Source: a virus. From it: a stretch of DNA of 35,539 nucleotides. Of the stretch, positions 1-20,937 are shown piece by piece. The stretch is from positions 1 to 35,539 of IMG/VR virus record IMGVR_UViG_3300020469_000124; one strand, 5' to 3'. The notes under the pieces were generated by a model that had not been told where the DNA came from, did no database searches, and was given only the letters and a program-made list of their open reading frames with translations. The translations under genes and the position numbers were made by a program. Position 1 is the first letter of the stretch. Every line of letters starts with the position of its first letter.

Positions 1-31
1 TTTAATTAACAACGGATAAAAACAAACAGCT

Positions 32-61
32 ATGAAAAATATTAAACTATTTGAAGAATTT
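32..61 (+). repeat. 30-bp direct repeat, copy 1 (targeting-tag DNA)
   Basis: The first 30 coding bases of this gene are identical to bases 752-781 at the start of the next gene. Both encode MKNIKLFEEF. After the repeat the two genes diverge completely. Confidence 0.9.
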
Positions 62-727
62 GTAGATGAATCAAATCAACCTATCAACGAGGTGTTTGAA
101 GACACTCCAATACTAGGTAAGATAGCAAAAGACCTCATGAAAAAACATGAGACCTTGGAAATGAACGCTGAAAATTTTGATAAAATTCAGGCCGTGGCTA
201 AAGAGTTGGCTGATAACCCATGGGAATACCTTTATAAAATAGCAAATGCTAGCAAATATGCTGATTGGTTACAGGAGGAATACAACGATACTAAATTCCT
301 ATTTGATAAATCAGGAAAATTAAAATTTATTATTGCGTATGTCGGACCAGGAAGGAAGATAGTTAAATTTACGCATATTGCTGAATTGAAGCATACTTCA
401 ATTAAAGATCTGGATCAGGAAATTGAAGATTGGGCTTATGAAAATTACCCTAGACTTTTTAAAAACTTGGACTGGATGGTTTATCAATATACTGAATATA
501 AAACCTATCCATGGAAAATTCCAACTGAAGGAACTTTTGAGCTTGTATCTGCACCGACTAAAAAACTTGCTATGGAAAATACAAAAGCTAATCCATCAAA
601 AGATGATTCGTTTTGGGAAAACCATGGAATTGAACAAATTTCGAAACAAGATATTAAAAAAATGCAAAAAGAACTAAAACAGAAAGCAGACCATTACGCT
701 GAATTAGTAAAGACTTTCGTTAATTAG
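32..727 (+). CDS. Putative head-packaged internal protein with capsid-targeting tag
   Basis: I do not recognise the 231-residue body. The first ten residues, MKNIKLFEEF, are identical to those of the next gene, and the 30 coding bases are identical too. The tag continues VDE|S. This resembles the T4 internal-protein targeting peptide (MKTYQEFIAE), which directs proteins into the prohead and is cut after Glu by protease gp21. Cleavage here would fall after Glu13. The rest is soluble, charged and rich in Lys, Trp and Tyr, with no membrane segment. ATG is preceded by an A-rich leader with no Shine-Dalgarno. The neighbours are head and late-expression genes. By inference this is a core or injected protein; its activity is unknown. 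The ORF is certain, the packaging role moderately likely. Confidence 0.75.
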   Translation: MKNIKLFEEFVDESNQPINEVFEDTPILGKIAKDLMKKHETLEMNAENFDKIQAVAKELADNPWEYLYKIANASKYADWLQEEYNDTKFLFDKSGKLKFIIAYVGPGRKIVKFTHIAELKHTSIKDLDQEIEDWAYENYPRLFKNLDWMVYQYTEYKTYPWKIPTEGTFELVSAPTKKLAMENTKANPSKDDSFWENHGIEQISKQDIKKMQKELKQKADHYAELVKTFVN

Positions 728-2684: not shown

Positions 2685-4289
2685 ATGGCAGGTTTTGCAG
2701 ATAAGGATCCAAGAAATGGTCCATTAAGTAATAGAAGGCCTTTTAGGTTAAGTAATACATTAAAACTACTTTCATCATTTGGAATGAGATATGATGATTT
2801 AGTACTTAGACAATCTCAAGCAGTTGGTCCATTAGAAGATAAGTTTGGTTATGGCCAAATGAATCCAATGGGTGTAGACAACGATGATATGTATGCGGCA
2901 TTCGCAGCATTATCAATGGCTGATACTACAATGAGAAAAAACATTCCATGGTTTGACCAACAATATGAAGTAAAGAGAGAAGAACTTAGAAGATTTTCTA
3001 TTAACGATGAAATAGAAGATATTTTAGATATACTTTGTGATGAAACTATAGTATATGATAATAAAAACTTTTTTGGTTCTCCTGAAATTTTAGGAGTAGA
3101 AGTAGCAGATGGTATTCAAAAAGACTTAAACAGATATTTTAGACAAATATATCACGCATTTGGTTTTAACTCAGATCAATCCGCTTGGTATTATTTTAGA
3201 AAATGGTTAATTGATGGTTATTTAGCATTTGAAATTATTTACTCTCCTGATCAAAAAGAAATTATAGGTTTTAAAGAAATTGACCCAATTACATTAGTGC
3301 CGGGTTATAATAAAGAAGATGGTAAAAAAGTATGGGTACAGTTTAAAGACGATCCAATAAAAGAAAGAACACTTTATGATTCTCAAGTAATTTACCTTTC
3401 TTATTCTTCAATAACTACTGCATCTAGAGTCTCTTATGTTGAAAGACTTATTAGATCGTTTAACTTATTAAGAATTATGGAACATACAAGAATTATTTGG
3501 GCAGTGACCAATAGTTCTTATAGAATGAAATTTGTTATACCAGTTGGTGGTAAATCTAAAACAAGAGCAAAACAATCACTTGCTCAATTAATGAATTCAT
3601 ATAAAGAAGTTGTAGATTTTGATTGGGAATCAGGTTCTATGTCAACAGATGGCAAGCCAATGTTACAATTTAATAAAGAATATTGGTTACCAAGTAAAGA
3701 CGGTGACAGCCCTGAAATTGAAACATTAGATGCATCAGGTCCAGACCTTTCAGATACAGAAGCACTTAAGTATTTTTCAGATAAACTTAAGCATGTTTCT
3801 AAAATACCTTATTCAAGGTTCTTATATGAAGACGGAGGTGGAGATTTTAATCTTGCCGCTGATGGAATGATTAGAGATGAAATTAAATTTAGCAAGTTTG
3901 TAAAGAGACTTAGATCAGCTTTCCAAGAAATATTAGTAAAGCCACTATATTTACAAATGTGTATTGCATATAAAGACCTTGCAGAAGATCCACAATTTAA
4001 AACTCAAGTTGCATTAAGATATAATAGAGATAATGACTTTGCAGCCTTGAAAGAAATGGAAATCATGGAAAGAAGACTTGATTTTGTTTCTACAATGAGA
4101 GACAGTTTAATGACAACGAATCAAGAAACTATGGAAGAGGAATACTACTTTGATATGGAGTTTTTAGTTGATAGATACTTACAACTAAGCCCAGATGACA
4201 TTGCTGCCAATGCAGCTGCTAAGGCTAAAACAGATAGACAAGAAGAAGAGGAGCCTGAAGTTGAAGACCCAATGGGAATGGGCATTTAA
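2685..4289 (+). CDS. gp20: Portal vertex protein (T4 gp20)
   Basis: Dodecameric portal through which DNA is packaged and to which the neck attaches. At 534 residues it is close to T4 gp20 (524). Diagnostic parts are VSYVERLIRSFNLLRIMEHT and the following helix, the YWLPSKDGDSPEIETLDA strand and loop, DTEALKYFSDKLKHVSKIPY, and RDEIKFSKFVKRLRSAF near the end. These are the crown, wing and clip signatures of the gp20 family. The C-terminus is acidic (EEEEPEVEDP). It opens the head module in the T4 order 20-core-21-22-23. The start is the only ATG after the promoter-like element and leaves a 41-base gap to the previous gene. Confidence 0.95.
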   Translation: MAGFADKDPRNGPLSNRRPFRLSNTLKLLSSFGMRYDDLVLRQSQAVGPLEDKFGYGQMNPMGVDNDDMYAAFAALSMADTTMRKNIPWFDQQYEVKREELRRFSINDEIEDILDILCDETIVYDNKNFFGSPEILGVEVADGIQKDLNRYFRQIYHAFGFNSDQSAWYYFRKWLIDGYLAFEIIYSPDQKEIIGFKEIDPITLVPGYNKEDGKKVWVQFKDDPIKERTLYDSQVIYLSYSSITTASRVSYVERLIRSFNLLRIMEHTRIIWAVTNSSYRMKFVIPVGGKSKTRAKQSLAQLMNSYKEVVDFDWESGSMSTDGKPMLQFNKEYWLPSKDGDSPEIETLDASGPDLSDTEALKYFSDKLKHVSKIPYSRFLYEDGGGDFNLAADGMIRDEIKFSKFVKRLRSAFQEILVKPLYLQMCIAYKDLAEDPQFKTQVALRYNRDNDFAALKEMEIMERRLDFVSTMRDSLMTTNQETMEEEYYFDMEFLVDRYLQLSPDDIAANAAAKAKTDRQEEEEPEVEDPMGMGI

Positions 4290-5116: not shown

Positions 5117-6994
5117 ATGGATAGACTTATAAATAAGGCTAGCGATTATAATTTATTAATAGTTGAAAAATCTTCTGGTGTTCTAGAACAAACAGGGGAA
5201 AACAAGGACTATGTTTTAGAAGGTGTTTTTGGTGAGATTGATGTTAAAAATAAGAACAATAGAATCTACACTGAAGACGAATATCTTCCACAAATTAAAT
5301 CTCTACAAGACAAGATCGGATCTTCTAAATTACTTGGTGAATTAGACCATCCTCAACAATTTGATATTTCTCTTAAGAATGTATCACACGTTGTTGAAGA
5401 ATTAAGATATGACCAAGATAATAAAAAGGTAATGGGAAAAATCAGATTATTAGATACTGACGCTGGCAAGCAAGCTAAAGCGTTGGTTGATGCTGGTGTA
5501 CCATTACATATTAGTTCAAGAGCGGCAGGCGAAGTTTCTGAAGGTGGTAAAGTTAAAATCAAACAACTTTTTACCTATGACTTAGTTGCAGACCCAGGAT
5601 TCGAAAACGCACAACTTAATAGAGTTAATGAATCATTTGGCTTTGACAATGATGAGAATCTATTCATATATGAAGTATTTAAAAAAGAAATAAATAAAAC
5701 AAACGAAAACAAAAAAGAGCAAAAAATGGAAGAATTTGTAAAAACAGATGACTTCAACAATTACACTAAGTATTTGGCTGAGCAAATAAAAGGGTTAAAG
5801 TCCGCTCTTACAGAATTAACAGAAACTTCATCTGAAGGATCTGCTACTACTAATGAAGACATTAAAACTGTAACTGCTCACAACGATCATATTGTTGAAT
5901 CAATAAACAATTTAACAGAGTATGTTAAGTATGTTGCAGAAAAAACTGATCAAAATATTCAATATTCAGAATATTTAGCAGAAAAAACTGATCAATCAAT
6001 TCAGTATGCAGAATATGTTGCTGAAAAAGCAGATCAAGGAATTTCTTATACAGAACACATTGCTGAATCAGTAACTAAATTAAAAGACTATAGTAATTAT
6101 ATTGCTGAATCTTATAATACTGGTACAGAAACAAACGAAAAACTTATAGAGTATGTTAACTATTTAAAAGATAACGTACAAAATGTTAGCGAATATGCTA
6201 ACTACATTGCAGAGTCAATCAACGAAAACTTAGTAGTTGAAGCTGATGACGTTACAGCTAAAGAAGCTGGCGAAGCTGCTGCTGATAACGAACTTGAAAA
6301 AGTTGGTGATAATTCAGAAGAAGGTAGTGTTGCAGATAAAGATGGAGATGCAGGTGTTGAAGGCGAAGATATTAAATCAGATGCTAAAGACGTTACTGCA
6401 CCTGAAAAACAAGAAGAAGGAGATGATAAAGCTCCTGAAGCTGAAGGAAAAGATGGAGCACATGATCCATTAGAATCTTATAAATCAGAAATATCTAGTA
6501 AATTAACATCTTTATTAGAAGCTGCAAAGACAAAAGAAAACAACGATCCACATTTCTTTAAATTAGTTGGTTCATCTACTGCTGAAAAGTATAATGCATT
6601 AAATGAAGATGCAAGAACAGTTGTAAGAACTCAAGTTGAAGGTTCAGGATTTTTAACAGAATCTCAGATTGTTAGAATCATTGAAAACCAAACTAAAGAA
6701 GTTGAAGCTGCTAACGAACCGTTAGTACTTTCAGCAATGCCAACTGAATATAAATCAAAATGGGAAAATCTTTCTGAAGCTAAGAAAAATCAATTACTTG
6801 CACAGTCAAGAACTCATAAAGTTGAGACTGAATATCAAGTAAGAAACTTCTGGCAAACAAGAGACCTTAGAGAAACTGCTCCAGTAATGGAAAAAGTTGC
6901 TATGGTAACTGAAAAGAAAGAAGTTGAGACTAAGACACTTCCTTATAACTTAGAAGGTGTTAAAGAAGCAATGGCAAAAAGATTTAAAAAATAA
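5117..6994 (+). CDS. gp21: Prohead protease fused to scaffold (gp21-gp22 fusion)
   Basis: A 625-residue protein. Residues 30-190 are a T4 gp21-type serine protease: VLEGVFGEIDVKNKNNRIY, GELDHP with likely catalytic His78, HISSRAAG with likely catalytic Ser133/134, and the LVADPGFENAQL element. After a Lys/Asn-rich linker (190-203) comes a long helical, acidic scaffold-like part (204-625) with 14-residue repeats and a disordered acidic segment (about 375-450). In T4 these are two proteins, gp21 (212 residues) and gp22 (269). The fusion resembles lambda-type protease-scaffold genes, where the scaffold is also made from an internal start. Role: cut core proteins and the capsid N-terminus, and template the prohead. 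The last bases overlap no real gene; MCP starts 85 bases later. Confidence 0.85.
   Translation: MDRLINKASDYNLLIVEKSSGVLEQTGENKDYVLEGVFGEIDVKNKNNRIYTEDEYLPQIKSLQDKIGSSKLLGELDHPQQFDISLKNVSHVVEELRYDQDNKKVMGKIRLLDTDAGKQAKALVDAGVPLHISSRAAGEVSEGGKVKIKQLFTYDLVADPGFENAQLNRVNESFGFDNDENLFIYEVFKKEINKTNENKKEQKMEEFVKTDDFNNYTKYLAEQIKGLKSALTELTETSSEGSATTNEDIKTVTAHNDHIVESINNLTEYVKYVAEKTDQNIQYSEYLAEKTDQSIQYAEYVAEKADQGISYTEHIAESVTKLKDYSNYIAESYNTGTETNEKLIEYVNYLKDNVQNVSEYANYIAESINENLVVEADDVTAKEAGEAAADNELEKVGDNSEEGSVADKDGDAGVEGEDIKSDAKDVTAPEKQEEGDDKAPEAEGKDGAHDPLESYKSEISSKLTSLLEAAKTKENNDPHFFKLVGSSTAEKYNALNEDARTVVRTQVEGSGFLTESQIVRIIENQTKEVEAANEPLVLSAMPTEYKSKWENLSEAKKNQLLAQSRTHKVETEYQVRNFWQTRDLRETAPVMEKVAMVTEKKEVETKTLPYNLEGVKEAMAKRFKK
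5726..6994 (+). CDS. gp22: Nested scaffold protein from internal start (gp22-like)
   Basis: An in-frame ATG at codon 204 of the protease ORF follows AACAAAAAAGAGCAAAAA, almost the same A-rich leader used by the outer gene and by the tube gene. Starting here gives a 422-residue protein (MEEFVKTDDFNNY...) that is scaffold only. Phage scaffolds are needed in large excess over protease, so a separately initiated product makes sense. It contains coiled-coil repeats at residues 71-165 and a C-terminal domain (about 260-422) with regular helices ending near KEAMAKRFKK. The scaffold assignment rests on position between gp21 and gp23 and on composition. The internal start is inference. Confidence 0.5.
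   Translation: MEEFVKTDDFNNYTKYLAEQIKGLKSALTELTETSSEGSATTNEDIKTVTAHNDHIVESINNLTEYVKYVAEKTDQNIQYSEYLAEKTDQSIQYAEYVAEKADQGISYTEHIAESVTKLKDYSNYIAESYNTGTETNEKLIEYVNYLKDNVQNVSEYANYIAESINENLVVEADDVTAKEAGEAAADNELEKVGDNSEEGSVADKDGDAGVEGEDIKSDAKDVTAPEKQEEGDDKAPEAEGKDGAHDPLESYKSEISSKLTSLLEAAKTKENNDPHFFKLVGSSTAEKYNALNEDARTVVRTQVEGSGFLTESQIVRIIENQTKEVEAANEPLVLSAMPTEYKSKWENLSEAKKNQLLAQSRTHKVETEYQVRNFWQTRDLRETAPVMEKVAMVTEKKEVETKTLPYNLEGVKEAMAKRFKK
5936..6214 (+). repeat. 42-bp (14-residue) tandem repeats in scaffold
   Basis: Units such as AEKTDQNIQYSEYL, AEKTDQSIQYAEYV and AEKADQGISYTEHI repeat every 14 residues (42 bp), that is two coiled-coil heptads. Two adjacent copies share an 18-bp identical core (5936-5953 and 5978-5995). 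A 21-residue unit interrupts later, and the series ends with IAES at about 6214. Each unit carries V/L/I-A-E followed by K or S. Confidence 0.85.
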
Positions 6995-7079
6995 TAAAAC
7001 AATCGACGATTTGGTGACAGAAGCAGAAAGCCAAAGTAATAAGTCGAAATTAAACAAACAAAAAATAGAAATTTATAAA

Positions 7080-8507
7080 ATGGCAAATTTAATAAATGAA
7101 GCTGAAATCAGAGAAACGTGGTCTCCAATTATAGAGAGCGCTACTGGTATCAATGATGCTTCAAAATTAGCATGGATGTCTGAGTACTGTCATAATCACA
7201 AACTTTATGAAGACGCAAACATCATGTCACTTTCTAACAATCCAGGTCCTATGAATTTAGGTGGTATGGGTGCAGTTGCATTCCCATCTGACTTCGGTGG
7301 TATCGGTGCTGCAGGTGCAGCGGATGGTTCAGGTGACAAAGCTCCAACTTTACTTCCTTTAGCGATGCAAGTTGCAGCTCAAACAATCGGTTTAGATTTA
7401 GTTCCTGTCGTACCAATGGCTGGACCTATGGGTCTTTTATCTTACTTAGACTTCGTATACGAAGGTGGTAGATTAGATAAAGCAGAGGCTCCAACTTATG
7501 TAAAAGCAACAGGTGCTTCAGCTGATATTACAGCTGGTGCAGGTAACGGTGCTCACACATATGTTGCAGAATCTAGAATTGATGGAAAACCAATCTTTAA
7601 AGTAGGAGAATTAGTAGACGCAAACGTTGCTGATGATTTTGCTGCTGCAGGTTATACTGGCGTTGAGTTAGTTGCTGCATTAGACGATCATATCCCAGGT
7701 TTTTCTGGTCAAGATGACGGTCAACCTTTCGATAGAGCTACTGGCGAATCTACGGCTGACAAATTAATGGGTCTTTCTTTATTCTCAAAAGCAATTGAAG
7801 CAAAAACTTACCAAGTTGCTGCTGCAGTTACTAGAGAACAAGTTCAAGATTTAAAACAATTCGGTGTTGATGCTGTTGCTCAAGTTGAGGCAGTTTTAAC
7901 TAACGAATTAACACAAACTATCAATGATTTAATCATTGGTGAAATTGGTACATTGGCTGCTGCTAACATGACTGCATCTTCAGTTTCTTTAGATGTAACA
8001 TTAGCAACACCAGCAGGTGGCGGACAGACTGAAGGTTCTGAACACAGAAAAGTGTTAACAGGTATTTTAGCTGCTGCTAACTTAATTGCAAACAGAGGTA
8101 GAAGAGGTGCAGGTAACTTCGCGGTTGTAGGACCACAAGTTGCTACATTAATTCAATCTGTTGCTGGTTTCGTACCTAACCCATTCGCTAACACAGCTAC
8201 TCAAGCTGCAGGTGCTATTTATCCTGTAGGTTCTGTTGCTGGTGTACAAGTATACACAAACCCAAAATGGGCTTGGGGTTATGCTGATGTATTAGTTGGT
8301 AGAAAAGGTGACGGAAACGGTCCAGGTCTTGTATTCATGCCTTACTTAATGGCTGAATCAGTACAAACAATTGCTGAAGGAACTATGGCTCCTAAAGTAG
8401 CTGTTAAATCAAGATTTGCATTAGTTGCTGCAGGTTTCCACCCAGAAACTCAGTACGCAAAATTCACAGTTGGTTATCCATCTGGATCAGACATGATTAA
8501 CTTATAA
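7080..8507 (+). CDS. gp23: Major capsid protein (T4 gp23)
   Basis: Main shell protein, 475 residues (T4 gp23 has 521). I chose the ATG at 7080 because MANLINEAEIRETWSPIIES aligns with the T4 gp23 N-terminus (KAELLNKWKPLLE). The open frame extends upstream to 6957 inside the scaffold gene but has no gp23-like sequence there. Other gp23-type parts are the LVPVVPMAGPMGLLSYLDFV strand, the long central helix region with EAKTYQVAAAVTREQVQDLK, and the C-terminal KSRFALVAAGFHPETQYA. The precursor N-terminus (about 65 residues in T4) should be removed by the prohead protease; LINE|A and IIE|S are candidate sites. Codons are GCT/GGT-rich compared with neighbours, typical of very high expression. A strong terminator follows. 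Confidence 0.95.
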   Translation: MANLINEAEIRETWSPIIESATGINDASKLAWMSEYCHNHKLYEDANIMSLSNNPGPMNLGGMGAVAFPSDFGGIGAAGAADGSGDKAPTLLPLAMQVAAQTIGLDLVPVVPMAGPMGLLSYLDFVYEGGRLDKAEAPTYVKATGASADITAGAGNGAHTYVAESRIDGKPIFKVGELVDANVADDFAAAGYTGVELVAALDDHIPGFSGQDDGQPFDRATGESTADKLMGLSLFSKAIEAKTYQVAAAVTREQVQDLKQFGVDAVAQVEAVLTNELTQTINDLIIGEIGTLAAANMTASSVSLDVTLATPAGGGQTEGSEHRKVLTGILAAANLIANRGRRGAGNFAVVGPQVATLIQSVAGFVPNPFANTATQAAGAIYPVGSVAGVQVYTNPKWAWGYADVLVGRKGDGNGPGLVFMPYLMAESVQTIAEGTMAPKVAVKSRFALVAAGFHPETQYAKFTVGYPSGSDMINL

Positions 8508-8607: not shown

Positions 8608-10344
8608 ATGAAAATTAAATATAAAATAAAAGGAATTAGTGAGTTTATTGTTGAAAACGTTGAAACACCTAACAATAAAGACACAAATAAAAGCATAAGT
8701 AATAACATAGATGTGACTATCTCTTCAAGCGAAGATCTACGACAAGAAATAGATAGTATTTTAAATAAGTTACAAAAACTTGAGGTCAGTTTAAGTGGTA
8801 ATATATTTCAAAATGGAAATAGTTCATTGCAAGAATCTTTAGACAATGAACTAATCTTAGAATTTACAGACTCTTATAATAAAGGACTTGCTAAAGGTGA
8901 ACAATTTGGAGCGGCTATGGGCATAGTTGCTGTATTAGTTTTTTTAAAAGTTAGAGCTAATCGTAGAATTAAAAAGAAAAAAGAAGCTTATGGAAAATAC
9001 TGGCCAACTAAGCAACAACTTTTAATCGATAAAAAATATTCAGATAAAAAATTCGACCAAGATTTTAAAAGAAAAGAATTTATTGAAAAAGAATTACAAG
9101 GTGTAAAAGATAAGTACGATAAAAAAATATCTAAATTAGAACCAAACAATCCTAAATCTCAAAAGGTAGCTGACAAACTTAGAGCAGATAGACAAGAAAA
9201 AATTAAAAAATTAGAAGAGGTTATCAATAAAAAGATAGATCAGAAAAAAGAAAGATTAAAAGTAGATATTGATAGAAAGATAGAGGACATGGATCTTCAA
9301 TGGGAAAGAGATGATGCCGATACAAATATAGCAAGTCTTTTTGCTAAATTTTCAGGCAATCCAGCTGGAGGAAAGATGGAAAGAAAATGGAAAGATTGGA
9401 AATTAGAATTTGATAGAAAGGTAGAAGATAAGATTATTGATTATGAAAGAAAGCTTATTGATGAAATTCATGGTGGAGATGAGAAAAAACTTAAACAAGA
9501 AATTGGACAATTAGATAGTAGAATTAAAAAGTTTAAAGGTAAACAAGCTGAAGAACTTAAGAAGTCTAAAGAAGAAAACGCAAAATTAGACCAAGAGACT
9601 AAAGAATTTGAAACTGAACAAGCTACTAAAGAAAAGGCAAAAGAAGAAAAACTAGGTCCTGAATATATAGAAGCTAAACAGAAATATAACGAGTATATGG
9701 AATCTGTTAATAAATTTGGTCAAGTTCTTTCATTTGCTGAAAAAAATACAAGTGGAGATGCCTCAGAAAAAGCAAAGACAGATTTACAAAAAGCCTATAA
9801 AACAATGAGAATGCGTAGTAACTTTAGTAAAGCTAACGCTAAACAGCTTATGCCAGATGGTGATGAAAAAGATTACGAAGAACTTTTAAAAGGTAGACAA
9901 GAACAATTACAAGGTTTTAAAGAAGCCTACAATGAAGTAATATCTAAATTTAAAAAACAACCTGCTGCTCAAGAATCAAAAACAGTAAAATTTGAAAAAA
10001 TGGTATTAACAGAAAAACTATATACATATAACAGCTTTATGAACGAATCAAAAACTTCAGAATATGTAAAACGTCTTAGTAAAAAAATGAAAGATTTTTT
10101 TAAGGCAGTTGGAAAAGAAGGTAAACAAACTAAAGACGCAGTCAAATTAGTTATTACCGCTAAACAAGAAAATAGAAAATTAACAGACGACGAAAAGGAA
10201 ATGGTAAAAGAACAGCTTAAAGATGTTTTAAGAACAATAGGGCTTAGCTATGTTGCTGTTATGCCAGGTGGACTTTTAATTGCAATATTGCTTAGAGCAT
10301 TTGAAATAGAAGATAAATTAATTCCTTCTAGTTTCAAAAAGTAA
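8608..10344 (+). CDS. Coiled-coil protein with two capsid-targeting-like tags and C-terminal LETM1-like domain
   Basis: A 578-residue protein. The N-terminus has ISEFIVE|N (residues 10-17), like the capsid-targeting tags of the core proteins. A hydrophobic stretch (about 98-115, GAAMGIVAVLVFLKVRANRR) may span a membrane. Residues 120-460 are highly charged coiled coil. Around residue 465 a second tag-like segment starts at Met: MVLTEKLYTYNSFMNE|S. The last 90 residues (KKMKDFFKAVGKEGKQTKDA, then LTDDEKEMVKEQLKDVLRTI, MPGGLLIAILLRAF, LIPSSF) match the LETM1-like domain of small bacterial membrane-associated proteins. By inference it is head-packaged and cut by the prohead protease, possibly releasing a membrane-active C-terminal piece. 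It may be a fusion of two genes. Confidence 0.7.
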   Translation: MKIKYKIKGISEFIVENVETPNNKDTNKSISNNIDVTISSSEDLRQEIDSILNKLQKLEVSLSGNIFQNGNSSLQESLDNELILEFTDSYNKGLAKGEQFGAAMGIVAVLVFLKVRANRRIKKKKEAYGKYWPTKQQLLIDKKYSDKKFDQDFKRKEFIEKELQGVKDKYDKKISKLEPNNPKSQKVADKLRADRQEKIKKLEEVINKKIDQKKERLKVDIDRKIEDMDLQWERDDADTNIASLFAKFSGNPAGGKMERKWKDWKLEFDRKVEDKIIDYERKLIDEIHGGDEKKLKQEIGQLDSRIKKFKGKQAEELKKSKEENAKLDQETKEFETEQATKEKAKEEKLGPEYIEAKQKYNEYMESVNKFGQVLSFAEKNTSGDASEKAKTDLQKAYKTMRMRSNFSKANAKQLMPDGDEKDYEELLKGRQEQLQGFKEAYNEVISKFKKQPAAQESKTVKFEKMVLTEKLYTYNSFMNESKTSEYVKRLSKKMKDFFKAVGKEGKQTKDAVKLVITAKQENRKLTDDEKEMVKEQLKDVLRTIGLSYVAVMPGGLLIAILLRAFEIEDKLIPSSFKK

Positions 10345-10404: not shown

Positions 10405-10995
10405 ATGAAAAAGACAATAATTACGGGAATACTGTTTTTAGCAATTGTTACAATTTCTGCACAAGAAAAAGGAACTAAAAACATTAAGCCAGTTAAACAT
10501 ACAAAAGGAACTAATAGTTCTGTTATAGTTGAAAAAGAAGTTAAGACTGCACCAACTCCACTAAAACCTATTAGACCTACAAACAGTAACTCAACAAATA
10601 GAGCTGCTGCTTCATCTGCTGTAAATACATCAAAAGCTGAGAAAGTTTCTAATAATAGAGCTGCTGCTTCATCTGCTGTAAATACATCAAAAACTGAGAA
10701 AGTTAATAATAGAGCTGCTCAAACAACTGTTGAAACAAACAGACCAGAGAAAGTTAAAGTTAATAATGACAGAACTTCTATTAATAAAGAAGCAAAACCA
10801 TTAAATAACGAGTTTAGCAAATTATCAGCTGAATACTGTAAAGGATGGAAAAACGGATATGTAAAAGCTTGGTCAAAGGCTCACAAAGGTGAAAAACTTG
10901 AGTTTATTCCAAATTGTGAAACTACAGGTAACTGTGAAGGTTACAAATGTGGTTTTAAAGCAGGCATGAAAGCTGCTGAATTAAATATAAGATAA
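10405..10995 (+). CDS. Secreted repeat protein with Cys-containing C-terminal domain
   Basis: A 196-residue protein with a clear signal peptide (MKKTIITGILFLAIVTISAQ), typical of Bacteroidota, with cleavage probably before or after the Gln. A low-complexity Ser/Thr/Asn/Lys linker follows (21-130), containing two 19-residue copies of NRAAASSAVNTSK(A/T)EKV and a shorter third. The C-terminal 60 residues carry four cysteines and Gly-Tyr/Lys-rich segments (YCKGWKNGYVKAWSKA, CEGYKCGFKAGMKAAE), which suggests a disulfide-stabilised module acting outside the cytoplasm. No known function. It could be a host-derived envelope protein, a superinfection exclusion factor or a lysis accessory. No obvious promoter of either recurring class precedes it. 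Confidence 0.75.
   Translation: MKKTIITGILFLAIVTISAQEKGTKNIKPVKHTKGTNSSVIVEKEVKTAPTPLKPIRPTNSNSTNRAAASSAVNTSKAEKVSNNRAAASSAVNTSKTEKVNNRAAQTTVETNRPEKVKVNNDRTSINKEAKPLNNEFSKLSAEYCKGWKNGYVKAWSKAHKGEKLEFIPNCETTGNCEGYKCGFKAGMKAAELNIR
10597..10704 (+). repeat. 51-bp direct repeat (two copies, 57-bp period)
   Basis: Bases 10597-10647 and 10654-10704 are identical except for one position. A third, truncated copy begins at 10708. They lie in the linker of the secreted protein. Confidence 0.9.
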
Positions 10996-18479: not shown

Positions 18480-19130
18480 ATGTCAGATAAAAAGAAAACA
18501 ATTTCAGAACAGGCAGATGAAATCAAAAAAGACCTTGAAGAATTATTAGGTCCAGATGAATCAATAGACGTTGAAAAAGACCCTAATGATTTACCAGTTC
18601 CTAAATTTCACAATGCATCTCCAGCAATTAATTATGGAGACATGAAAGCAGGTGCTGAAAAACAGGCCAAGAAAACTATTACAAGTTTAATGCAATTTTA
18701 TCTTGAAGCCGACATTATAGAAAAGGATGAGTATTTAATGGCTAAAAAGAAAATGGATGAAATGACAATGAGTTCGTTAGTCTATCAACTTAAAGCCGGC
18801 GAGAGAGCCCTAACAACATTATTAGAAACAATAGAAGGAGGAGAACTTGCACCACGAATGTTCGAGGTGCTTGCTACATTGCAGAAATCTATGCTTGACA
18901 TTATTAAAAGCCAAACAATGTATTTAATGGCAACTGAAGAAAGTACAAAAAGAATTGCAAGAGATATTGAACTCTATAAGAAAAGAGAACATGATGATGA
19001 GGTTAATAGAGTAGGCGGTAACTCAAACGCAAATATACAAAGAGGTACAAAAGACCTTATGAACCAAATTCAAGCAGGTATTAATCAAGCTGACATTGAA
19101 GATATAGAACCAGAGTTAAACGATGAGTGA
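18480..19130 (+). CDS. gp16: Small terminase subunit (T4 gp16)
   Basis: A 216-residue protein recognising concatemeric DNA and stimulating the gp17 motor. The N-terminal 60 residues are acidic and probably disordered. The core (about 60-170) is long helices: KKTITSLMQFYLEADIIEKD, KKKMDEMTMSSLVYQLKAGE, TLLETIEGGELAPRMFEVLA, TLQKSMLDIIKSQTMYLMAT. This is the gp16 coiled-coil oligomerisation pattern. T4 gp16 is 164 residues. It overlaps the gp17 start by 8 bases, so the two subunits are coupled in translation. Confidence 0.9.
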   Translation: MSDKKKTISEQADEIKKDLEELLGPDESIDVEKDPNDLPVPKFHNASPAINYGDMKAGAEKQAKKTITSLMQFYLEADIIEKDEYLMAKKKMDEMTMSSLVYQLKAGERALTTLLETIEGGELAPRMFEVLATLQKSMLDIIKSQTMYLMATEESTKRIARDIELYKKREHDDEVNRVGGNSNANIQRGTKDLMNQIQAGINQADIEDIEPELNDE

Positions 19131-20937
19131 TAATTTTTGGATACCGAAAGAAACAGATCAATCAACAAGTGATAGGTTAGTCTGGTCTACTAAGAAGATT
19201 CAAGACCTTGAAGTTGCTATGGATCAAGGGTATAAGCCTCAGGTTAAAATGCCATTTTATGAAGGTAGACAATTCTTAAGAAGAGGTAATATTGTCTTTG
19301 AATATACTGATGAAGAAATTCAAGAACTTGCAAGATGTGCCGCGGATATTGTTTATTTTGCAGAAAAATACGCGGTAGTTCTTACGGATGAGGGAATTCA
19401 GCAGGTAAAACTAAGAGACTATCAAAAGGAAATGTTAAGAAATTTCCAAAACAATAGATTTAATATTTGTCTTGCATCACGTCAAATGGGTAAAACGGTA
19501 ATGGCCTCTATCTTTAACGCTTGGTTTTTAACATTTTCTACAGATAAAAATACACTCTTACTTGCAAATAAATCAGATACCACAAAAGAAATTATAGAAA
19601 AGGCAAAGGTTGTTATAGAAAACTTGCCATTCTTTATGAAGCCAGGAATTACAAAATATGACGTAATGAATGTAAAGTGTGATAATGGAAGTAGGCTTGT
19701 AGGGCAGAGTACAACTGCAAAGGCAGGTATTGGTTTTACAATTCACCTTTTGTTCTTAGATGAGTTTGCACACATACATCCTTCAATTGTTGATGCGTTT
19801 TACGAAAACGTTTATCCAACGCTTTCAGCTTCTAACGTTTCAAGAATTATTATTACAAGTACACCAAACGGCTTTAATAAATTTTATAAGATTTATAGTG
19901 CAGCTGAGAGAGGTGACAATGAATATCACCCAATGAGAATAGATTGGTGGCAGCATCCAGATAGAGATGATGATTGGTATAAAAGGGAACTTGCGAATCT
20001 TGGAAGTATAGAGGCTTTTAATAGACAATATGGAAATGAGTTTGTAAGCTCATCAAATCTTCTCTTAGACCCAGGCTCCATGAAAAAATTAAGGAGTAAA
20101 ATGAAAGACTACGTCTATCATGATTTAGACCAATTTACAGATGCACAAATAGACACTAAAGGTTTTTTAAGTTGGCATCCTGGGTTTGATGTAGAAACGC
20201 TTAAAGACCAAGACAAATATTGGTTATTGAGCGTCGATATCGCAGAAGGCAATGGAGGTGACTATTCAATTATTAATATATTTAGAGTCGATCCAATGAC
20301 TAAAAAAGAAATAGAAAATGTGCCGACTCCAGGTGCAATGTATGACTTTTTTAAACTTAATCAAGTTGGAGTCTTTCGATCTAATGAACATGTAATTGAA
20401 GATTTTGCAAAATGCCTTTACATAATTGGAGTTGATTTATTATATGGTGAAAACGTAAAAATGATTATCGAGTATAATACATACGGCGCAGTTTTATTAA
20501 ATTACCTATCAACTGTCTTTCCAAGAAGAAATGATTTTGACGAAGAAATGGTACTTCGTTTTAAACATAGACATGATAGCAGAGGTCTTAAACATGGTAT
20601 AAAAGTTAAAAATGACAATAAGCCAATTTTTTGTCAAAACTTTAAATCACTCTATGAAATTAACCGAATGAACATAACTGAATTTGAAACGGCAAATGAA
20701 ATAAGTCTTTTTGGCACATTACCAAGTGGTAAATATGGAGCTCAAATGGGACATGATGATTTAGCAATGTCAAGTATAATTTCAACAGAATTTTTTAACA
20801 CAACTTCATATGCAGATTCAGTAGAAGAACTGCTTGATATTATCGATCCTGACATTCACGATCACATGGAATTAACACTTTATAAAGACAGTCAAGAACA
20901 GGGAGACCTAAACTATGACATCTATGACTTATTATAG
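19123..20937 (+). CDS. gp17: Large terminase: packaging ATPase and nuclease (T4 gp17)
   Basis: DNA packaging motor, 604 residues (T4 gp17: 610). ATPase domain: adenine motif LRDYQKEMLRNFQ, Walker A SRQMGKT (119-125), Walker B LLFLDEFAH with Asp213 and Glu214, coupling motif TSTPNG (245-250). RNase H-fold nuclease domain: SVDIAEGNGGDYS with Asp372, MIIEYNTYG with Glu450, and GHDDLAMS with Asp545/546. All key residues are present, so it should be active. Order neck-16-17-18-19 is as in T4. Confidence 0.97.
   Translation: MSDNFWIPKETDQSTSDRLVWSTKKIQDLEVAMDQGYKPQVKMPFYEGRQFLRRGNIVFEYTDEEIQELARCAADIVYFAEKYAVVLTDEGIQQVKLRDYQKEMLRNFQNNRFNICLASRQMGKTVMASIFNAWFLTFSTDKNTLLLANKSDTTKEIIEKAKVVIENLPFFMKPGITKYDVMNVKCDNGSRLVGQSTTAKAGIGFTIHLLFLDEFAHIHPSIVDAFYENVYPTLSASNVSRIIITSTPNGFNKFYKIYSAAERGDNEYHPMRIDWWQHPDRDDDWYKRELANLGSIEAFNRQYGNEFVSSSNLLLDPGSMKKLRSKMKDYVYHDLDQFTDAQIDTKGFLSWHPGFDVETLKDQDKYWLLSVDIAEGNGGDYSIINIFRVDPMTKKEIENVPTPGAMYDFFKLNQVGVFRSNEHVIEDFAKCLYIIGVDLLYGENVKMIIEYNTYGAVLLNYLSTVFPRRNDFDEEMVLRFKHRHDSRGLKHGIKVKNDNKPIFCQNFKSLYEINRMNITEFETANEISLFGTLPSGKYGAQMGHDDLAMSSIISTEFFNTTSYADSVEELLDIIDPDIHDHMELTLYKDSQEQGDLNYDIYDLL

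Follow-up and report, generated by a model that had tools for sequence, protein, structure and literature searches.

The 578-aa protein encoded next to the major capsid protein gene (gp23) in the 35,539-nt stretch of viral DNA analyzed here (hereafter the window; IMG/VR record IMGVR_UViG_3300020469_000124) joins two putative internal head proteins, each bearing a tag, in a single chain. Its first part belongs to a family, here called X, that nearly always lies after gp23 and opens with a short N-terminal tag and a D/E-h-D-T-I-L/M motif, continuing in some members with a hydrophobic helix and then with a charged stretch of variable length. Its second part corresponds to a whole small gene that encodes a tag and a LETM1-related helical module; in sister phages this gene stands alone, just before the large terminase gene. 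We found this fusion together with its sister gene, an empty site at the terminase gene and purifying selection on both parts. As the best explanation of the whole, we consider it probable that two head-core protein genes of a Far-T4–type phage became fused, yielding a chain with docking tags, sites for protease trimming and a membrane helix.

Reading of the ORFs in the window confirmed that the frame, which starts with ATG, is real, and full-length relatives were found in L001 (76% identical) and L002 (65% identical). Among the matches listed, the fusion is common to only these three genomes. Head-gene matches identify the window, which is of marine origin, as a piece of a T4-like phage, and the gene order, portal, gp21-like protease, gp23 and then X, puts the fused gene among prohead core genes (Table 1). 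The window shares T4-like head genes and an origin among uncultivated aquatic phages with the Far-T4 phages (Roux et al. 2015, PMC4360716; Rhodothermus phage RM378); it differs in that the nearest records to its gp23 are LR756500, from an uncultured 462-kb phage (49.5%), and those of Prevotella Lak phages (36 to 37%). We infer, rather than read from a gp23 tree, that the phage is of the Far-T4 type. A marine Far-T4 virus has been tied to Bacteroidetes in silico, according to the accessible part of PMC7198788. Three further features of the region were observed. The protease ORF combines a protease and a scaffold-like region, with YxEYxAEKxDQ-type repeats in its middle. The gene after the fused ORF (10405-10995) starts like a signal peptide, contains NRAA/EKVKVN repeats and varies in length (196 aa in the window, 223 aa in L001 and 204 aa in L002). 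The 231-aa ORF with which the window begins (32-727) likewise has a good tag at its N-terminus, MKNIKLFEEFVDES.

Table 1. Coordinates of the head genes, of the parts of the fused protein and of the empty module site in the window
Feature	Position (nt)	Residues	Strand	Remarks
Portal	2685-4289			Pfam Portal_T4, 2.5e-70
Head-maturation protease with long tail (gp21-like)	5117-6994			phrog_207, 5e-40
Major capsid protein gp23	6957-8507			Pfam, 9.5e-43; Met matching relatives near 7080
Fused protein: gp23-adjacent protein (X) plus tagged LETM1-related module	8608-10344	1-578	+	578 aa; full-length relatives L001, L002
N-terminal tag KGISEFIVEN	8629-8658	8-17	+	Degenerate
EIDSILNKLQKL motif	8746-8781	47-58	+	In 61/64 unique ORFs after gp23
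L/I-x-E sites	8827-8862	P1 at 76 and 85	+	In the stretch where family X is enriched in such sites
Hydrophobic helix	8902-8958	99-117	+	Mean hydropathy 1.63
Charged Lys/Glu-rich stretch	8959-9993	118-462	+	Likely coiled coil, read from sequence by eye
LTE, strict L-x-E site	10006-10014	467-469	+	Just before second tag; invariant in 3/3 fused proteins
Second, internal tag YTYNSFMNES	10021-10050	472-481 (within 465-481)	+
LETM1-related module	10054-10335	483-576	+
Hydrophobic helix of module	10237-10293	544-562	+	Mean hydropathy 2.18
Homologues of the L094 222-aa gene (18480-19130) and large terminase (19123-20937)	18480-20937		+	Overlapping; module site empty

The preliminary description of this DNA had proposed that two genes for tagged internal proteins were joined here and had suggested a search for relatives with separate halves. 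The fusion is well supported, and such relatives exist. L094/L095, whose gp23 is 71% identical to that of the window, carry after gp23 their own tagged X, which has 286 aa and lacks the module, and elsewhere a free-standing module gene of 115 aa with an N-terminal tag (MRKVQLFEGFVNED...), located in a 356-nt gap that separates a 222-aa gene from that of the large terminase. The homologues of these two neighbors overlap by 4 nt in both the window and L002, with no gene between them; those of the window are 72 and 74% identical to the L094 genes, respectively. In a maximum-likelihood tree of 36 modules, those of the window, L001, L002 and the tagged L094/L095 proteins form one clade (support 100/99). 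The other tagged module genes lie elsewhere in this tree; the module thus acquired or retained a tag in several lineages. The free-standing L110 protein (112 aa, N-terminal tag MRYLSDFNSFLNES...) aligns over its whole length from the Met onward, tag included and without a gap, with residues 468 to 578 of the fused protein; 42 of 111 residues are identical. In both parts pN is below pS; for the module, pN/pS is 0.161/0.397 against L001 and 0.209/0.636 against L002. The fused module is absent from the nearest relatives by gp23, which makes fusion a simpler reading than fission, although complete genomes are too few for proof.

Other relatives have different arrangements at this junction. In L024, the relative of the N-terminal part (467 aa) ends within the stretch that aligns with the second tag. 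Directly after it comes a 198-aa gene (L024:8022-8618) with its own N-terminal tag, MKIILSNKVADYNTFVNEKS, the cargo of which is not the LETM1-related module. L016 encodes an 870-aa protein after gp23 (L016:8498-11107) that combines a window-like half, made up of tag, hydrophobic helix and charged stretch, with a second internal protein that has its own tag, followed by an EIDTIL motif at residue 526. This is a second, independent case of two proteins fused where an internal tag lies.

To define family X, 80 loci were fetched by gp23 and the ORF directly downstream was read, which gave 72 ORFs, 64 of them unique. Of 85 loci with gp23, 13 lacked a downstream ORF; 12 of these have 347 nt of contig or less left, and L005 (Lak-C1), also among the 13, has a different gene layout. 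A D/E-h-D/E-x-I-L/M-x-x-L-x-x-L motif is common to all but three of the unique ORFs (Table 1), and those three are other genes (L004, L056 and L065). The 578-aa protein is a member of X by its position directly after gp23 and by its D/E-h-D/E-T-I motif. A short tag-like start opens most of the 61 motif-bearing proteins. Their bodies and ends are very divergent; L010 and L013, for example, have a gp23 that is 93% identical to that of L001, yet their X has 287 aa and a different body. Thus, the position after gp23 is a swap site for tagged proteins. It is also a cargo hot spot: a gene that we take to be glycosyltransferase-like (IPKKIHQIWIG...) recurs after gp23 or X in L010, L013, L015, L018 and L065. 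Of 60 X proteins, 41 end in a K/R/N-F-x-x-L-L–type tail, which may serve for docking or be removed by the protease; L021, L022 and L030, for example, have an LNES...SIADKFRxLL-like tail. A hydrophobic segment, by the threshold applied to the fused protein, is present in 20 of the 64 unique gp23-adjacent proteins and is hence not a constant feature.

As the preliminary description stated, the N-terminus of the fused protein carries a tag, but a degenerate one. It scores 5.2, compared with 11.2 to 30.6 for the 37 training tags, a scale that is biased because those tags were chosen by regular expression, and it has no aromatic residue at the position matching residue 4 of the T4 CTS. The T4 CTS has an aromatic residue at position 4, Phe at 7, Ile or Leu at 8 and Glu at 10. 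At these positions the N-terminal tag has I, F, I and E, and the internal tag Y, F, M and E. In T4, residues 4 and 7 target the protein to the core and residues 8 and 10 serve processing, and Asp at position 10 stops processing with targeting unaffected (as given in section 2.6 of PMC9026906). The targeting positions of the internal tag (Y474 and F477) are kept in all three fused proteins. Its first processing position is Met (M478) in all three, not Ile or Leu, and residue 480 is Glu in the window and L001 and Arg in L002. The conservation of the targeting positions, but not of the cleavage position, makes a second docking site more likely than obligatory cleavage there.

The gp21 protease of T4 cuts after L/I-X-E (as given in section 2.5 of PMC9026906). 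A strict L-T-E lies 11 residues upstream of E480 in each fused protein, and the window protein contains seven L/I-x-E sites in total. We counted such sites in 60 X proteins, excluding L004, L056, L065 and L016, in the last of which the motif is internal. In the 40 residues just after the motif, 148 sites were observed versus 70 expected from composition, and 57 of the 60 proteins have at least one; beyond that stretch, 246 were observed versus 316 expected. Owing to the relatedness of the proteins, and to the truncation of some at contig ends, the excess does not represent 60 independent cases; nevertheless, the enrichment is as expected if these proteins are protease substrates.

These data bear on the reading of the fused chain as a polyprotein, in which a cut at FMNE480|S would release an untagged LETM1-like piece in the head, to be injected and to act on DNA entry or on the host membrane. 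The tag and the junction are real, a gp21-like protease is encoded nearby, and the internal proteins of T4 lose their tags and are then ejected (in the accessible part of PMC9026906). However, the protease site that had been proposed near residue 480 was not supported: the sequence there is M-N-E|S rather than the gp21 motif, and in L002 it is M-E-R-S, with the Glu lost. We therefore regard release at this site as rather unlikely.

The naming of the C-terminal domain as LETM1-like is justified in part. Residues 465 to 578 match NCBIfam NF040639 (LETM1_rel_film, a LETM1-related biofilm-associated protein) with an E value of 3.3e-9 and 36.6 bits, far below the equivalog cut-off of 250. The homology is confined to the C-terminal ∼90 positions of that profile, which were matched by 13 of 13 modules tested; its first ∼300 positions are absent from the phage modules. 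Against Pfam LETM1_RBD, the 578-aa protein gave an E value of 0.011 and 15.7 bits, versus a gathering score of 25.3, and only 2 of the 13 modules touched the profile (E ≤ 0.05), below the cut-off. The part in common with LETM1 is solely the C-terminal membrane-helix region (PGG...PSSF), a helix with a proline/glycine turn and a PSSF-like end that corresponds to profile positions 1 to 50 of 229. The rest of the ribosome-binding domain is absent, and by these profile comparisons the module is not that domain; carrying the ion-exchange role of LETM1 over to it would be unfounded.

Structural comparison did not return the match to LETM1 that had been anticipated. AlphaFold models of the module are all-helical and of modest confidence (mean pLDDT 76.8 and 71.2), and with these models neither Foldseek (E ≤ 0.001) nor VIA-align (best Z 2.8) found a match among solved folds; a sequence-profile search of the PDB gave nothing convincing (best E 0.03). 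To our knowledge, the solved LETM1-family structures cover the ribosome-binding domain, a part that the module does not contain. The best match in BFVD, the phage protein A0A6J5N8A7 (30% identity, E 0.42), is already named "LETM1-like," and hence the label is not new for phages. Literature searches combining "LETM1-like" with "phage" found nothing, and those linking LETM1 with bacteriophage/Bacteroidetes or with biofilm/Flavobacteri listed no article holding LETM1.

When viral contigs were first scanned, the C-terminal part by itself retrieved no relative; scans with small alignments found relatives where the single-sequence query did not and, together with an iterated profile, gave at least 32 module matches, copies included. 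Most modules among the matches listed sit inside large phage proteins (L006, L007, L096-L098, L103-L108 and L111-L116). By our own reading, these mostly have a nucleotidyltransferase-like N-terminus; Pfam searches with three of them gave only CTP_transf_like, in one protein, with an E value of 0.0022, under the cut-off. Besides the tagged stand-alone genes of L094/L095 and L110, the record of L035 holds one of 125 aa (MNQIKMYEDFMDEK...) that adjoins another tagged ORF. At L124:866-1842, two adjoining tagged ORFs, one of 195 aa and the other the 125-aa module, lie beside what is presumably a ribonucleotide reductase small subunit-like gene. L102 and L107 have untagged free-standing modules of about 100 aa; in L102 (region 7276-8306), the module starts at the end of a gene that we take to encode a ClpP-like protease. 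A module search of 50 gp23 records from the 80 loci gave two positives, one of which was the L035 gene; the other (E 5.6e-4, at a contig edge) was set aside, as its ORF list contains no recognizable module. In tblastn searches of 50,697 phage records, there was no homologue of the full 578-aa protein, no match to the X of L094 or to the tagged module of L110, and nothing meaningful for the C-terminal part of the 578-aa protein; the L006 module gave a weak 31% match in two uncultured huge-phage records.

Cells carry the module as well: among 247 genomes sampled from the phylum to which a Bacteroidetes MAG belongs, 27 have it, mostly as the final part of ∼400-aa ORFs and in a few cases as a short free-standing ORF; one free-standing cellular protein of 120 aa is 47% identical to the module protein of L094. 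The module is thus common to phages and Bacteroidota cells. This distribution, and the modules in phage proteins without such tags, for example in L102 and L107, would suit a role in the infected cell, with a copied small Bacteroidota membrane protein altering the host membrane or ion balance and the tags being leftovers. We consider this unlikely, since tag and module are kept together in three separate stand-alone kinds (L094/L095, L110 and the record of L035) as well as in the fusion to a head-gene neighbor.

The second tag had been described as beginning with Met465. The codon at residue 465, the place that matches the start of the free-standing gene, is ATG in the window and L002 but GTA in L001, so that Met465 is not a conserved start. 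An internal translation start near Met465, which would yield a small tagged protein besides the full chain, is disfavored by this substitution and, in our view, very unlikely. The tag itself is backed by homology. The motif score is only modestly significant: a score of 9.1, that of the internal tag, was reached by 32 of the 313,167 internal positions used as background, which omitted L016, L024 and the fused proteins, and by 217 of 5,000 shuffles of residues 31 to 578; of its relatives, the L001 stretch scores 1.6 and that of L002 is outside the best three. The 18-residue tag stretch evolves faster than the rest of the protein (pN about 0.33). The score thus excludes chance weakly, and position and homology decide instead; in our reading the second tag is real. 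A chance match in the lysine-rich linker of an ordinary multidomain protein, which the shuffles and the score of L002 would allow, is highly improbable in view of the ungapped homology with the stand-alone tagged L110 protein and of the sister clade with tagged genes.

Our preferred reading, a fusion of two head-core protein genes, suggests the following course of events. As in T4, the tags would dock the chain onto the prohead core, the internal tag still serving as a second docking site. The gp21-like protease would trim the chain chiefly in the stretch behind the motif, with LTE469 as a possible further site. In the least certain step, the LETM1-related helix would be a membrane segment that takes the core protein to the inner membrane or, alternatively, would be carried in the head and meet a membrane at infection. 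Contact with a membrane is suggested by the two hydrophobic segments, judged by hydropathy. Assembly of T4 proheads begins at the inner membrane, and their release comes after the maturation cleavages (in the accessible part of PMC9958956). Because of this, we also put forward, as a doubtful proposal, that this protein with two tags acts as a tether. The tags would hold the prohead core and the helices the inner membrane, and the finished prohead would be freed from the membrane when the head protease cuts at LTE469 or at the tags. The free-standing tagged proteins of sister phages, whose C-terminal helix is hydrophobic, would then be this tether in unfused form.

The closest known parallels are IPI-IPIII and Alt of T4, which likewise have a short YxxFhxE-form tag (CTS) ahead of unrelated cargo and a head-gene neighborhood with portal, gp21-like protease and gp23. 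Unlike them, the window protein, a putative head protein, has two tags per chain and hydrophobic helices, and the gp23-adjacent family has no match in the isolate-phage collection searched. The accessible part of a paper on SPN3US (PMC10052503) contains nothing on fusions. With its unfused sister gene and an empty site both identified, this case reveals how genes for tagged cargo of T4-like heads are moved and fused, with the place after gp23 acting as a swap site. It also raises the questions of why the putative internal head proteins of these phages carry membrane-type helices and of how T4-type proheads are held at, and freed from, the membrane.
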